Assembly: GCF_030651745.1 (NCBI RefSeq)
Contig: NZ_JAUSCC010000150.1
Location: 1-6,932, forward strand
DNA: 6,932 bases
Source: Methylophaga sp.
Lineage (GTDB): Bacteria > Pseudomonadota > Gammaproteobacteria > Nitrosococcales > Methylophagaceae
Direction of reading: 5' to 3'
The first letter of the stretch is position 1; the number at the start of each line of letters is the position of its first letter. Shown here in pieces: positions 259 through 6,895 of the stretch. Under the pieces are notes generated by a model, which was not told the DNA's origin, searched no databases, and saw nothing but the letters and a program-made list of their open reading frames with translations. A program made the translations under genes and the position numbers.

Positions 259-822
259 ATGAAGAAATTTTTACAAATCGTTGCTGCAACAGTTATTGCT
301 CTACCTTTAGTAGCAACAGCTCATGGCCCTACCCGCCAACAAGTTGAAGAAAAGGTTGTTATTAATGCGGCCCCGGAAAAAGTCTGGGAAATGCTCAAAG
401 ATTTCAGTGCTATCGACCAGTGGCATCCTGCTGTTGAAAGCGTGGAAATGAAAGCTGATAACGTCCGTGTTCTGACGTTGAAAAGCGAAGGCAACCCGAC
501 TATCACTGAAGAATTAGAAAAAGTTGATGACGAAAGAATGTCTGTCATCTACAAAATCACCGATATGAGTGTCGTCAAAACCATCACCTTCAACAGTAAA
601 GATACGCCTTATTACACACTGCCTGTATCAACCTACAAATCATGGATGTTTGTAAAAGAGGTTGATGGTGGTACAGAAGTTATGTGGCGTGCAAAATTCT
701 ACCGTTCGTTCATGGATAACCCTCCTGTACCTGAAGGTCAGGCTGACGCTGACGCAGTTGCAGTCGTTACCGAAGTTTACAAAACCGGTCTGGAAAATCT
801 GAAAAATATCATGGAGAAATAA
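259..822 (+). CDS. Secreted MxaD-like SRPBCC-domain protein
   Basis: This encodes a 187-residue predicted periplasmic protein. Residues 1-21 form a classic signal peptide (MKKF, a hydrophobic core, then an A-T-A cleavage motif), so the mature protein would begin at H22 with HGPT. The remainder looks like a START/SRPBCC (polyketide cyclase-like) fold: VVINAAPEKVWEMLKDFSAIDQWHPAV at about 34-60 is the typical opening of that family, and the C-terminal helix ends GLENLKNIMEK. The HGPT mature start and overall layout recall MxaD, a periplasmic protein of methanol dehydrogenase gene clusters, reported to help electron transfer from the dehydrogenase to its cytochrome. I am confident of the fold and secretion, less so of the MxaD role, because no dehydrogenase gene is visible. 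The ATG at 259 is chosen over an in-frame GTG at 226 because GGAGA (248-252) lies 6 nt upstream and the signal peptide starts there. Its stop codon overlaps the next start (TAATG). Confidence 0.85.
   Translation: MKKFLQIVAATVIALPLVATAHGPTRQQVEEKVVINAAPEKVWEMLKDFSAIDQWHPAVESVEMKADNVRVLTLKSEGNPTITEELEKVDDERMSVIYKITDMSVVKTITFNSKDTPYYTLPVSTYKSWMFVKEVDGGTEVMWRAKFYRSFMDNPPVPEGQADADAVAVVTEVYKTGLENLKNIMEK
813..817 (+). promoter_or_regulatory. Ribosome binding site fixing the propeller gene start at 822
   Basis: GGAGA lies 4 nt before the ATG at 822, inside the last codons of the MxaD-like gene. It matters because it supports initiation upstream of the terminator hairpin at 855-884, so the hairpin is inside the coding sequence and not in a leader. 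Confidence 0.65.
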
Positions 823-1814
823 TGCTTTTTTCTATTAACGAAAATGCATTTTTTAAAGCGACCCTTAACCGGGTCGCTTTTTTTGTGCTTGCCAGTTTTA
901 GCCTGTCGGCCTGCGCAGAACCTGCCAATTATGCGTTTATCAGTAATCAGCTAAGTAATGACATCAGTGTTATTGATATCGATAAACAAACCGTAGTCAG
1001 TACCATTACTGTGGGTACAGCTCCTGCTGGTGTAGCGTTAAGTCCGGATGGTCAGCGTGTATTGATTACCAATCCAGACAGTCAGAATATTTCGGTATTA
1101 GACGCCCGCCAATTAACTGAGATCAGTCAAATCCCGGTAGGCCAAGGTCCTGTAGGCATTGCCACCAATCATAATGGCAGTCTGGCATATGTTGCTGACT
1201 GGTATGAGCATAAAATCAGTGTTGTTGAAGTAGATAAACAACTTATCCGTAAACGTATTGATGTCGGAAATTCCCCGGCCGGCGTGATTCTTAATGAATC
1301 ACAAAACCGTTTATATGTCGCTAATCGTGATGATAATTCGGTGAGCATAATTGATACGATCACCGAGAAGGTTATTGAGACAGTCGAAGTTGGACAAGCT
1401 CCGTTTGGCCTTGCCTTAACGGCTGATGGCAAGCGGCTTTTCAGCGTCAATGTGCAGGATAACAGTGTCAGCATGATAGACACCGATAGTCTCGCGGTAA
1501 TTGCAACGATTGAAGTCGGAGAATGGCCTTACTGCGCCGTGAGCAGTCCTGATGGCAAATTTCTTTATGTCACCAATCAGGATGAAAACACGGTATCTGT
1601 GATTGATATTGCTGCCGCTGAAACTATCAATACCATTGAGGTGGATGATAGTCCGGAAGGCATTGATATTACCGCCAATGGTAAGCATCTTTATGTTTCA
1701 AACTGGGGAAGTGGCAGTGTTTCCATCATTGATACTACAACCGGCAAACGTATTGAAGATATTAAAACCGGAGATGGTAGCCGTGCCTTTGGCGATTTTA
1801 TTATCAGCCAATAA
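822..1814 (+). CDS. YVTN-family seven-bladed beta-propeller lipoprotein
   Basis: The product has 330 residues. Residues 1-31 form a lipoprotein signal: a short n-region with K12 and R17, a hydrophobic stretch, and the lipobox L28-S29-A30-C31. The residue after the cysteine is Ala, which under the E. coli sorting rule favours the outer membrane. From Y37 to the end there are exactly seven repeats of 42 residues. Each carries variants of (Y/I)V(T/A)N, SV(S)(V/I)ID, (I/V)xVG, PxG and a closing (D/N)GK, the signature of YVTN/YncE-like NHL-type propellers. Such proteins usually bind partners or ligands and need no catalytic residues. The start overlaps the preceding stop by one base (TAATG), suggesting translational coupling, and GGAGA precedes it. 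Codons 12-21 form an intrinsic terminator. Pairing with an MxaD-like protein suggests a role in PQQ-linked oxidation or its assembly in the envelope; this is inference. No closer function can be read from the sequence. Confidence 0.9.
   Translation: MLFSINENAFFKATLNRVAFFVLASFSLSACAEPANYAFISNQLSNDISVIDIDKQTVVSTITVGTAPAGVALSPDGQRVLITNPDSQNISVLDARQLTEISQIPVGQGPVGIATNHNGSLAYVADWYEHKISVVEVDKQLIRKRIDVGNSPAGVILNESQNRLYVANRDDNSVSIIDTITEKVIETVEVGQAPFGLALTADGKRLFSVNVQDNSVSMIDTDSLAVIATIEVGEWPYCAVSSPDGKFLYVTNQDENTVSVIDIAAAETINTIEVDDSPEGIDITANGKHLYVSNWGSGSVSIIDTTTGKRIEDIKTGDGSRAFGDFIISQ
855..884 (+). terminator. Intrinsic terminator embedded in the propeller gene's signal-peptide codons
   Basis: AAAGCGACCC (855-864) and GGGTCGCTTT (871-880) form a perfect 10-bp stem around the loop TTAACC. 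The right arm runs into a total of seven T residues (878-884). This is a textbook Rho-independent terminator for plus-strand transcription and lies 32 nt after the stop of the MxaD-like gene. On the other strand the arm is followed by only three T residues and then A residues, so it looks unidirectional. It sits in frame inside the next gene, encoding K12 to F21 of its signal peptide. Confidence 0.85.
930..1811 (+). repeat. Seven tandem 126-nt units encoding propeller blades
   Basis: Seven coding units of exactly 126 nt start at 930, 1056, 1182, 1308, 1434, 1560 and 1686, and the stop codon follows the last unit directly. The protein pattern recurs in register without insertion or deletion, while the DNA has diverged, so this is an old duplication and not a recent expansion. 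The last unit departs from the pattern at its end (GSRAFGDFIISQ in place of the PxG...DGK motif), as may be expected of the blade that closes the ring. Confidence 0.85.
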
Positions 1815-1826
1815 CACTCTTAGACC

Positions 1827-2609
1827 GTGCAGATAGAATCACTGGCAGTAACCGATCCAGCTTTGAAAGGGCAAGCAGATATCATTGCTGCCCGCTGTGG
1901 TTTACAACTCGTCTCACTGAATACAGATCTGCCTCAGCTGGTGCTTACCGATACTAGATTGGAGATCCGGGTTCCCGGTCTGGGAGGTCCGATATTTATC
2001 GATTTTACCGCCGGTAAAAACCAACACCGCCGACAGTTTGGTGGCGGCCGTGGTCAGCCATTAGCCAAAGCCGTTGGACTCAAAAAAGGGGCTAACCCGT
2101 ATATTGTTGATGCAACAGCAGGTTTTGGCAGAGACGCATTTGTATTTGCCAGCTTAGGCTGCCGGGTCACCTTGATAGAACAGAATCCTGTCATGGCAGC
2201 TTTGTTAGCCGATGCGTTACAGCGAGCTGTCGCGGATGATGATGTTGCGGAGATCATTTCGCGCATGCAACTACATCACGGTAATGCCGTGAACTATCTG
2301 GCCAGTCTTGCTGAAATTGACCGACCTGATGTGGTTTATCTGGATCCGATGTATCCCTCAAGGGATAAAACTGCATTGGTCAAAAAAGAAATGCAGCTGT
2401 TACATCAACTGGTAGGCCCCGATAGCAATAGCTCGGATTTACTTAATATGTCGCGGGAAGTTGCTTTAAAAAGAGTGGCTGTCAAACGACCTAAAGGTGC
2501 GGAGTTTTTTGCCAATCAACAACCGCATGTCAGCATCGAAAGCAAAAATACCCGTTACGATATTTACACCCTTAAATTCGCTAACGGCGTTGTTTATCCA
2601 ACTCTCTAA
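1827..2609 (+). CDS. rsmJ: 16S rRNA (guanine(1516)-N(2))-methyltransferase RsmJ
   Basis: RsmJ (formerly YhiQ) transfers a methyl group from S-adenosylmethionine to N2 of G1516 of 16S rRNA in the cytoplasm. The 260-residue product is close to the 250 residues of the E. coli enzyme and shows its hallmarks: FGGGRG at 71-76, the SAM-binding motif [11 protein letters not shown] at 95-104, IEQNP at 117-121, the catalytic-region motif VVYLDPMYP at 169-177 followed by KTALVKKEM, and VKRPKG at 219-224. The start is GTG: an in-frame TAG lies two codons upstream (1821-1823), no ATG start is near, and the N-terminus from this GTG aligns in length with known RsmJ. No good Shine-Dalgarno sequence precedes it. 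It lies 12 nt after the propeller gene, so it is probably co-transcribed with it, although the functions seem unrelated. Its 3' end overlaps the convergent rarA by 29 bp. Confidence 0.95.
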
Positions 2610-4601: not shown

Positions 4602-6895
4602 CGTGGTGGTGGGGCCAATACTTCGCGACTACCATTCGTTTGCATTGCAGATACCACACCTGCTGCCTCCATCGCTTCGACAATTCGGGCCGCACGGTTA
4701 TAACCAATTTTCAGGCGACGCTGCACACCAGAGACAGAGGCACGGCGGCTCTCTGTGACAATTTGCACTGCCTGGTCATAAAGCGGATCGGTCTCACCAT
4801 CACTGGCATCACCAATACCTGCACTTTCGCCATCATCATCGGAGATATCCTGAGTGATTTCTTCCAGATAATTAGGACCGCCTTGTGATTTCAGGAAATT
4901 CACCACGGCATGCACTTCATGATCATCCACAAATGCGCCGTGAACACGTTCCGGTAAACCGCTACCAGGTGGCAGATACAGCATATCGCCCTGGCCTAAT
5001 AGTTGTTCAGCGCCCATCTGATCAAGGATGGTGCGCGAATCTATACGTGAAGAAACCTGAAACGCCATACGGGTTGGAATATTGGCTTTAATCAAGCCGG
5101 TAATAACATCCACCGAGGGTCTTTGCGTGGCCAAAATCAAATGAATACCAGCGGCACGGGCTTTTTGCGCCAGGCGGGCAATCAGTTCTTCCACCTGCTT
5201 GCCAACTACCATCATCATATCGGCTAATTCATCGATGATAACGACGATAAATGGCAAAGTTTCCAGCGTCGGGATTGGTTCACCGGGCAATACTTCTGCC
5301 ATTGGGTCAGGAATCGGCTCGCCATTATCGATGGCATCCTGCACTTTCTTGTTATAGCCAGCAATATTGCGCACGCCCAATGCTGCCATCAAAGGATAAC
5401 GTCGTTCCATTTCCGCGACACACCAACGCAGTGCATTGGCGGCCTCTTTCATATCGGTAACCACAGGCGTCAATAAATGCGGAATATCTTCGTAAATCGA
5501 TAATTCCAGCATTTTCGGATCCACCATGATCAGGCGAACCTCTTTTGGTGTGGCTTTATAAAGCAGGCTGAGGATCATTGCGTTAACGGCAACTGATTTA
5601 CCCGAGCCTGTTGTACCGGCAACCAGCAGATGAGGCATTTTTTCAAGGTTGGCAACCACGGGTCTACCAGCGATATCTTTACCCAAAGCCATGACCAATG
5701 GGGATTTACTGTTTTCGTAATCACTGCATGCCAGAATTTCGCGTAACCGAACCACTTCACGAATTTCATTGGGAATTTCCAGACCAACAAACGGTTTGCC
5801 CGGAATAATTTCAACAATACGCACGCTGGTAATGGATAACGCCCTGGCCAGATCTTTTGCCAGACCACTGATGCGACTGACCTTGATCCCTGCTGCCGGT
5901 TGCAATTCAAAGCGGGTTACTACCGGACCGGGCTGAACCTCAACGACCTGAACTTCCACACCAAAATCTTTTAACTTTAATTCGACCAGACGCGATAACG
6001 CTTCTAACACTTCTTCGCTATACCCCGTGGTGATTGCTTTTGGCATGTCCAATAAAGACAAGGTTGGCATACCCGGCGCATCAGGTGTTTCGAACAAGGG
6101 TTGCTGGCGTTCTTTTTCTTCACGCTTGCTAGGCTCTTTCACCACTATCTGTGGTTCAACCCGTACTTTAGGCTTACTTTGCATTTTTTCTTTCTGCGCG
6201 ATAAAGCTTTCTTCACGCTGTTGACGAGTGCGTCTGATTTGCAAATTGCCCTGTAATTCACGACTCCAACGAGACACATGGATCAATACCACCATCGCCA
6301 TCGCCCCCAGCCGGTCAATCACCATCAGCCAGGATAAGCCGGTAAACAATGTCACCCCTGTCAGCAATAAAGCTAATAGCAATAAACTGGTGCCCGATGC
6401 TCCGAATACCGCTTCAAACCCTTGACCAACGGATTGTCCAAGTACACCACCCGCCCCTTCCGGTAAATATTTTGCATACTCAACCAGACTGAGCGATGAC
6501 AAGCCACTGGCAGCTGCCAATGCCATAATCAATCCGACAGATTTCAATACCCAGAAATGTAATTCATCATCGCCATCAGCACGCTTGCCCCAGCTGAATA
6601 ACAGCCAGCCACTGAATCCCAGCATTAATGGCGCCAGATAAGCAGGTAAACCAAAAGCAAACAGCAAAGTATCTGCAAGCCAGGCACCGACAATACCTCC
6701 CCGATTGGCGATAAAATCGTCAGTTCCGGTGGTCGACCAGCCAGGATCGGTAGGTTCGTAGGTGATTAAAGACAGTAATAGATAAGCCGCCAATGCCAGC
6801 GCCAGGATCAGTGCTGCTTCACGAAGTCTGAACCCGACTGCGCCAGCGGAGACATCTGGTTTATTTTTGTCGTTTGCCCGTGTCGCTTGTGCCAA
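4595..6895 (-). CDS. ftsK: DNA translocase FtsK
   Basis: FtsK is an inner-membrane divisome protein whose cytoplasmic motor pumps DNA at the septum and activates XerCD recombination at dif. The 766-residue product is a compact form compared with 1329 residues in E. coli, whose linker is very long. The N-terminal domain has about four membrane segments, near 27-46, 79-102, 114-135 and 168-192, with another hydrophobic stretch at 193-207. A charged linker follows at about 210-285. The motor has a conserved alpha part from about 290, Walker [10 protein letters not shown] at 426-434, Walker B VVIIDE at 551-556, and [13 protein letters not shown] at 588-600. An acidic stretch ([21 protein letters not shown]) at 683-703 leads to the winged-helix gamma domain (about 704-760), with [14 protein letters not shown], which would read KOPS polarity sequences. 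The start is TTG: an in-frame TAA lies ten codons upstream, no ATG or GTG lies between, and GGA sits about 9 nt before it. lolA follows. Confidence 0.97.

Follow-up and report, generated by a model that had tools for sequence, protein, structure and literature searches.

Genes and features of the locus

The window, by which is meant the whole stretch of Methylophaga DNA that was analysed (6,932 nucleotides), aligns over its first 4.8 kb at 88% to M. muralis and carries one behind the other the genes for an MxaD-like secreted protein, a YVTN beta-propeller lipoprotein and an rsmJ-like 16S rRNA methyltransferase (Table 1). The MxaD-like protein is 97% identical to P0121, described by its sources as an SRPBCC family/MxaD protein of Methylophaga. 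The propeller gene begins within the stop codon of the MxaD-like gene, the two overlapping as TAATG, and in most of the relatives in which the propeller start likewise abuts the MxaD-like stop, GGAAA or GGAGA is found where the window has its possible Shine-Dalgarno sequence. Both the GGAGA and the ATG that the preliminary description of this DNA had assigned to the propeller gene upstream of a hairpin are thus present. Judged by reading the sequence, the beginning of the propeller protein would be a lipoprotein signal peptide, with a charged n-region (K12 and R17), a VAFFVLASF core and the lipobox LSAC.

Table 1. Positions of genes and sequence features in the window
Feature	Position	Strand	Details
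MxaD-like SRPBCC (Polyketide_cyc2) secreted protein gene	259..822	+	PF10604, E 5.8e-26; stop TAA 820-822
GGAGA, possible Shine-Dalgarno sequence of the propeller gene	813..817	+	within the final MxaD-like codons
YVTN beta-propeller lipoprotein gene	822..1814	+	TIGR02276 repeats, E 6.9e-69; Lactonase/YNCE match; ATG 822-824
Putative lipoprotein signal peptide including Cys, 31 codons, MLFSINENAFFKATLNRVAFFVLASFSLSAC	822..914	+	lipobox LSAC, Cys 912-914 = codon 31; from translation
5' stem arm AAAGCGACCC	855..864	+	codons K-A-T and first base of L
Loop TTAACC	865..870	+	6 nt
3' stem arm GGGTCGCTTT	871..880	+	end of R, V-A, first two bases of F
T-tract, seven T	878..884	+	last base of GCT, then TTT TTT (Phe-Phe)
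In-frame GTG	885..887	+	sole alternative start between hairpin and Cys in the window
rsmJ-like 16S rRNA methyltransferase gene	1827..2609	+	PF04445, E 5.2e-88; NF008012 match below cut-off

A hairpin with a T-tract in the signal-peptide frame

Codons 12-21 of the propeller gene (855-884; AAA GCG ACC CTT AAC CGG GTC GCT TTT TTT, KATLNRVAFF) can fold into a hairpin whose 10-bp stem contains 6 G-C pairs and is followed by TTTT up to 884, three of the seven T at 878-884 doubling as stem partners of A855-857. It lies 33 nt into the propeller ORF and 32 nt past the MxaD-like stop. An in-frame stem of ten pairs with seven T had been proposed for this place and is borne out, as is the proposal that translation of the hairpin would supply the arginine of the n-region and the start of the hydrophobic core ahead of the lipobox. 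With its G+C-rich stem, short loop and adjoining T-tract, the site has the sequence features expected of an intrinsic terminator. None of the other terminator-like sites in the window, 8 in all, has as many pairs, though shuffled windows average 7.2 such sites and the scan alone is weak proof. The segment 835-900 folds at -22.6 kcal/mol, whereas its shuffles average -10.2 (z -4.6) and none of 200 equals it. Neither the window nor L131, a locus from outside the family, had an Rfam match above the gathering score.

Conservation in the family

The search covered 57 genomes from one family, taken to be the GTDB Methylophagaceae, to which the Methylophaga sp. UBA3192 genome (G002) belongs. The propeller is found in 45 of these, in 44 at E <= 2.8e-99 and in one as a contig-end fragment beside an MxaD-like gene; two of these 44 are not whole, that of G039 reaching residue 296 and that of G001 being broken by a frame change. 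In M. muralis Bur 1 (L001, 4564-5552) a frame change near 5290-5313 breaks the propeller ORF into a 249-aa ORF and a remainder in another frame, either a pseudogene or an assembly error, and the MxaD-like gene of Methylophaga sp. UBA2689 (L005, 4001-4612) has an apparent in-frame insertion of ~51 nt, its match falling in two pieces over a 612-nt span. A best protein match of 46% had suggested that the propeller gene had arrived recently, inserted after an ancestral mxaD terminator, an idea that was dropped, the pair being found in near relatives.

The junctions upstream of all 45 propellers, together with the window, make up 46 family rows. Every one of them has a stem with a T-rich tail at the MxaD-propeller junction (that of L016 contains two G-U pairs), and in 45 an in-frame start, ATG in 42 and GTG in 3, stands upstream of the hairpin. 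The exception is L019 (G038), where the hairpin is present and the first in-frame ATG of the propeller falls inside its loop. In this locus the frame of the overlapping ATG meets a stop after the hairpin, and the propeller frame is without a lipobox cysteine; the row was entered in the overlapping-ATG frame for the codon alignment and for both recoding tests described below. L074, which has a different and weaker stem, was left out of the codon-block alignment, and the 45 rows that remain share one codon register, GCC or GCT (GTT in L019) followed by two codons that are mostly TTT TTT. The loop is shorter by one whole codon in four of these rows, so that the frame is preserved, and at the protein level the family keeps the pattern KA-x-L...[RK]-x-AFF. 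Alignment of orthologous loci had been proposed to show whether stem complementarity is conserved, with compensatory changes, along with the frame; the family orthologues keep both.

The distance from the MxaD-like stop to the stem is 24-32 nt in 40 of the 44 family rows measured and 60-80 nt in the other four. One clade (L029, L032 and L035) ends the MxaD-like gene with TGA and has a spacer of ~53 nt before the propeller start; despite this displaced start the hairpin remains 30 nt from it, as expected if it is part of the propeller gene.

Codon choice beyond the needs of the peptide

Synonymous recoding separates what the peptide requires from what the RNA adds. When the codon block of 36 distinct rows was recoded with synonymous codons at pooled usage in 300 null sets, the mean minimum free energy of the block was -5.0, compared with -16.7 observed, and the lowest mean of any null set was -6.3. 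Recoding of entire signal peptides, using each locus's own codon usage and a strict terminator criterion, gave an expectation of 1.02 terminators in the family signal peptides and a maximum of 7 in 200,000 draws, against 43 of 46 observed, figures made optimistic by the relatedness of the rows. The three rows missed by the strict criterion are L018, in which a TTC breaks the T-tract, L032, with four G-C pairs, and L074, with three G-C pairs in a different register. The hairpin thus goes far beyond chance, and the peptide alone cannot explain it.

The T-tract is likewise kept in the choice of codons. At the final two codons of the block in the 45 aligned rows, phenylalanine is written TTT 85 times and TTC twice, three more codons being Leu, while elsewhere in these signal peptides the ratio of TTT to TTC is 65:24 (p 2e-6, again optimistic for related rows) and in the remainder of the two genes it is 352:210. 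Codon 2 of the block encodes alanine in 34 distinct rows, and in all 34 it is GCG, which these genes use less than any other Ala codon.

Covariation of the two arms was followed in an 11-pair helix over 38 distinct rows with flanks, the helix being defined from these same sequences. Of its cells 96.4% are paired, against 89.0% in shuffles and 27.5-66.8% in registers displaced by 1-3 columns; changes on both sides occur at seven pairs (3.7 in shuffles) and double-change cells number 48 (13.7 in shuffles), while further pair types, 14 against 13.7, show no excess in these 38 rows. Eight pairs of this helix are also in the RNAalifold prediction. The stem has its axis where third codon positions face third positions, and an exchange is seen there: Lys AAG goes with Ala GCC in 25 of 25 distinct rows, and where Lys is AAA the Ala of codon 8 turns to GCT in 6 of 6, a fully synonymous compensatory change. 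At block codons 3 and 7 the residue pairs T-V, A-A, V-I, I-I, A-V and V-A occur in the 36 distinct rows and T-I, T-A, I-V and I-A are absent from them; signal-peptide residues 14 and 18 thus covary, as they would if their codons had to pair in the RNA. A tree made from only the mature propeller has too few independent double changes for any base pair to be significant by itself; where double changes are present none of those listed, which cover pair 11-22 in part, runs in the opposite direction, and with few of them per pair the evidence for covariation comes from a limited number of events. Taken with the codon choice, this pattern suggests that selection keeps the element both as RNA, in stem and T-tract, and as protein, in the charged n-region and the Phe-Phe core.

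Controls and occurrence outside the family

Paralogous MxaD-like and propeller pairs of the same family have a strong terminator in 0 of 23 junctions, L115 and L116 having a weak hairpin of four G-C pairs with a T tail. The 349 ORFs in 400 kb of G042 were accompanied by 30 called terminators, of which one lay inside a same-strand ORF, where it precedes a plausible later ATG; in 400 kb of G310 there were 12 beside 359 ORFs, with three in same-strand ORFs, 166-527 nt from the first start.

Among six additional genomes from the order of G002 none had a propeller match at E <= 1e-40, and three genomes from each of the orders of G193 and G128 gave no new locus. A class-level draw of 369 genomes yielded 14 new propeller loci, all 14 with an MxaD-like gene upstream. 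Four of them (L120, L122, L125 and L131) have a terminator in the signal-peptide frame, formed by different stems, two (L129 and L130) have a hairpin that apparently stands before the start, in L130 as judged by eye, and in eight none was seen. The propeller is common in the order around G310, perhaps Burkholderiales (a guess on our part), being present in 172 of the 201 genomes searched, and 62 junctions were taken from there: those of G198 and G310, the 20 best others and 40 more in roughly rank order, with G509, G553, G600 and G615 skipped. P0251, P0268, P0278 and P0303, which combine PF10604 and the propeller in one chain, looked like domain fusions; this was set aside, P0251 (from Bradyrhizobium diazoefficiens according to its source) keeping a second signal peptide in mid-protein, so that it probably represents two genes joined through a frame error.

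Together with 12 of the draw loci these junctions number 74, of which 72 were scored after L132 and L161 were dropped, the rank order making this a non-random sample. An in-frame terminator is present in 26 of the 72, against 3.28 expected from synonymous recoding and a maximum of 13 in 200,000 draws, and was not called in the other 46. Upstream of the hairpin, 18 of the 26 cases have an ATG and 8 have only GTG or TTG, and the distance from the stop to the first G-C pair is 21-49 nt. When the T-tract is ignored, the stem is stronger than synonymous recodings at p <= 0.05 in 35 of the 72. On a quick tree of 118 rows the presence of the terminator, as called and with threshold misses included, changes at least 17 times, and outside the family the element therefore seems to have been gained, lost or rebuilt often.

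Some outside loci (L134, L136, L141, L167, L170 and L184, and also L151 with p 0.07) have a strong stem in the signal peptide and an uncalled T-tract; these are either decayed terminators or hairpins with another use. The signal-peptide ORF of L152 contains a perfect 12-bp palindrome, GTAGAGACAGGG...CCCTGTCTCTAC, without a long T-tract, which might be a dispersed repeat.

Translation of the hairpin and alternative readings

That the hairpin is translated is suggested by its conservation in frame, and the question matters, as the same letters could belong to an ordinary intergenic terminator followed by an ORF that had been called too long, with translation beginning only after the hairpin. GTG 885 in the window would permit this, as would some start between the block and the cysteine in 21 of 44 family rows; the hairpin of the distant relatives L129 and L130 appears to precede a plausible ATG, and L097, from a background sample, is one case of a terminator ahead of a plausible start. 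A cysteine follows the hairpin block in 44 of the 45 aligned family rows, with L019 and L074 having no lipobox-type cysteine after the hairpin, and start codons were counted up to the last cysteine after the block, the first not being the lipobox in several rows. On this count no ATG, GTG or TTG stands between block and cysteine in 23 of the 44 rows, and in the other 21 a start there would leave 3-9 residues before the cysteine, too few for a signal peptide. In the window the GTG shares the propeller frame, and a start there would leave nine residues, close to the ten or so that had been estimated, and its position is ATG or ATA in the close relatives L004, L005 and L015. Add to this that the frame is preserved in the four rows whose loop is one codon shorter, and a late start becomes very improbable; orthologues that begin downstream, which had been named as grounds for abandoning the idea of a double function, do not fit the family. 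That one stretch serves as RNA hairpin and as signal peptide, as the preliminary description had it, is supported by the stem and the frame of the orthologues and by the recoding null.

The converse reading, in which the peptide rich in K, A, R and F is the conserved thing and the hairpin a by-product of its amino acids, can point to the peptide pattern kept in the family and to Ala-rich signal peptides, which on recoding yield a chance terminator in up to 22% of cases in single outside rows; yet the recoded peptides as a whole give 1.02 per 46 and 3.28 per 72 where 43 and 26 were observed, and with synonymous wobble positions that covary and an Ala codon 2 that is always GCG this is the least credible of the alternatives. 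An inverted repeat acting at the level of DNA, be it a protein-binding site, a member of a repeat family or an uptake sequence, would account for the perfectly palindromic arms but not for stem sequences that diverge widely across lineages while the pairing and the one-sided T-tract persist, and deserves hardly more credence. Better placed, and still unlikely, is a selected RNA element that is no terminator and serves mRNA processing or stability, at the 3' end of the MxaD-like message, or control of the rate of propeller translation. The six outside loci listed above, from L134 to L184, in which a stem that beats most recodings persists without a called T-tract, speak for it, as does a stem at p <= 0.05 in 12 of the 46 outside rows that have no called terminator. 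A stability stem requires no T-tract, whereas in the family the T-tract is kept beyond coding need, and outside it tails of T6-8 recur with different stems. We therefore think it probable that the hairpin is a working Rho-independent terminator, embedded in the propeller signal peptide and translated as such, with the propeller expressed by read-through.

Proposed mechanism and published parallels

With such a terminator, RNA polymerase leaving the MxaD-like gene would in most family rows meet the hairpin 24-32 nt past the stop codon, and the majority of transcripts would end there, with a protected 3' end and only the MxaD-like gene on board. The smaller part would read through and become mRNA of the propeller and, in the window, of the rsmJ-like gene, which comes next downstream and would be served by the same read-through transcripts. 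As the terminator lies inside the propeller coding sequence, no promoter upstream of the gene can bypass it; every full propeller mRNA would then be a read-through product and the expression of the gene would be set by read-through.

The most direct comparison is with the E. coli terminator tR2, which, in the available text of PMC4824070, is repressed at short distances past a stop codon, reaches an efficiency of ~0.9 once it is ~27-30 nt past it, and loses only ~10% of its efficiency to translation when placed 30 bp inside an ORF. Set against these data, the stop-to-stem geometry predicts effective termination in most rows. The construct W48 of the same work, with tR2 30 bp after the AUG of an E. 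coli reporter, resembles the present case further in lying >27 nt past an upstream stop, and differs in being artificial, whereas the element of the window is natural, conserved and probably protein-coding. That termination lowers the lipoprotein relative to its secreted partner, as originally suggested, is plausible and fits these E. coli data as far as the available text of PMC4824070 gives them. As to the probable strength, regulation and purpose of the terminator, such analogy helps and would point to a ratio, fixed or tuned by translation, with the MxaD-like protein high and the propeller low. A strong terminator inside an ORF would be expected to yield non-stop mRNAs, as invoked for an ORF-internal terminator in that part of PMC4824070, a cost that counts against the proposal.

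By its place in a translated ORF, ahead of the coding region that it would control, the element also resembles an attenuator. A counterpart is known from E. coli in the pyrBI attenuator, where the terminator is contained in the gene of a leader peptide, presumably pyrL. There too an intrinsic terminator lies within a translated ORF, and a ribosome close behind the polymerase can block folding of the hairpin (PMC4824070, in the available text). The difference is that the ORF of pyrBI encodes a separate leader peptide, whereas the ORF in question here supplies the signal peptide of the very protein that would be controlled. Premature and ORF-internal 3' ends in E. coli (PMC7815308) offer a broader likeness, premature termination tuning downstream expression there as well; covarying terminators that double as signal peptides are not described in the text available of that paper, in which the term 'signal peptide' occurs 0 times. 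No terminator conserved inside a signal peptide came up in the literature surveyed by title and abstract opening, with few subscription journals covered. Terminators inside translated ORFs as such are known, pyrBI being an example.

A bolder extension, which we hold only tentatively and regard as doubtful, is that the gene attenuates itself and that terminators are a recurrent source of signal peptides. Since the hairpin lies ~30 nt into an ORF that in most family rows begins over or directly beside the upstream stop, the polymerase would escape or not according to how fast a ribosome re-initiates at the propeller start. The gene would then have its transcription switched on by translation of its own signal peptide, and the ratio of the partners would be tied to translation. 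Because the G+C-rich stem encodes charged and Ala residues and the T-tract Phe-Phe, terminators may recurrently seed signal peptides, and the different stems of L120, L122 and the order of G310 would then be repeated cases.

Significance

The locus offers a natural stretch of 30 nt on which two constraints appear to act, that of an RNA terminator and that of a signal for protein targeting. Such elements could, it may be suggested, escape both the terminator finders in which coding sequence is masked and the gene callers that steer clear of terminators. The natural and diverse variants would allow the coupling of ribosome and polymerase to be tested at operon junctions, and for the organisms themselves the arrangement would mean that the second member of a gene pair, in the family and beyond it, could be expressed only through read-through of a terminator.
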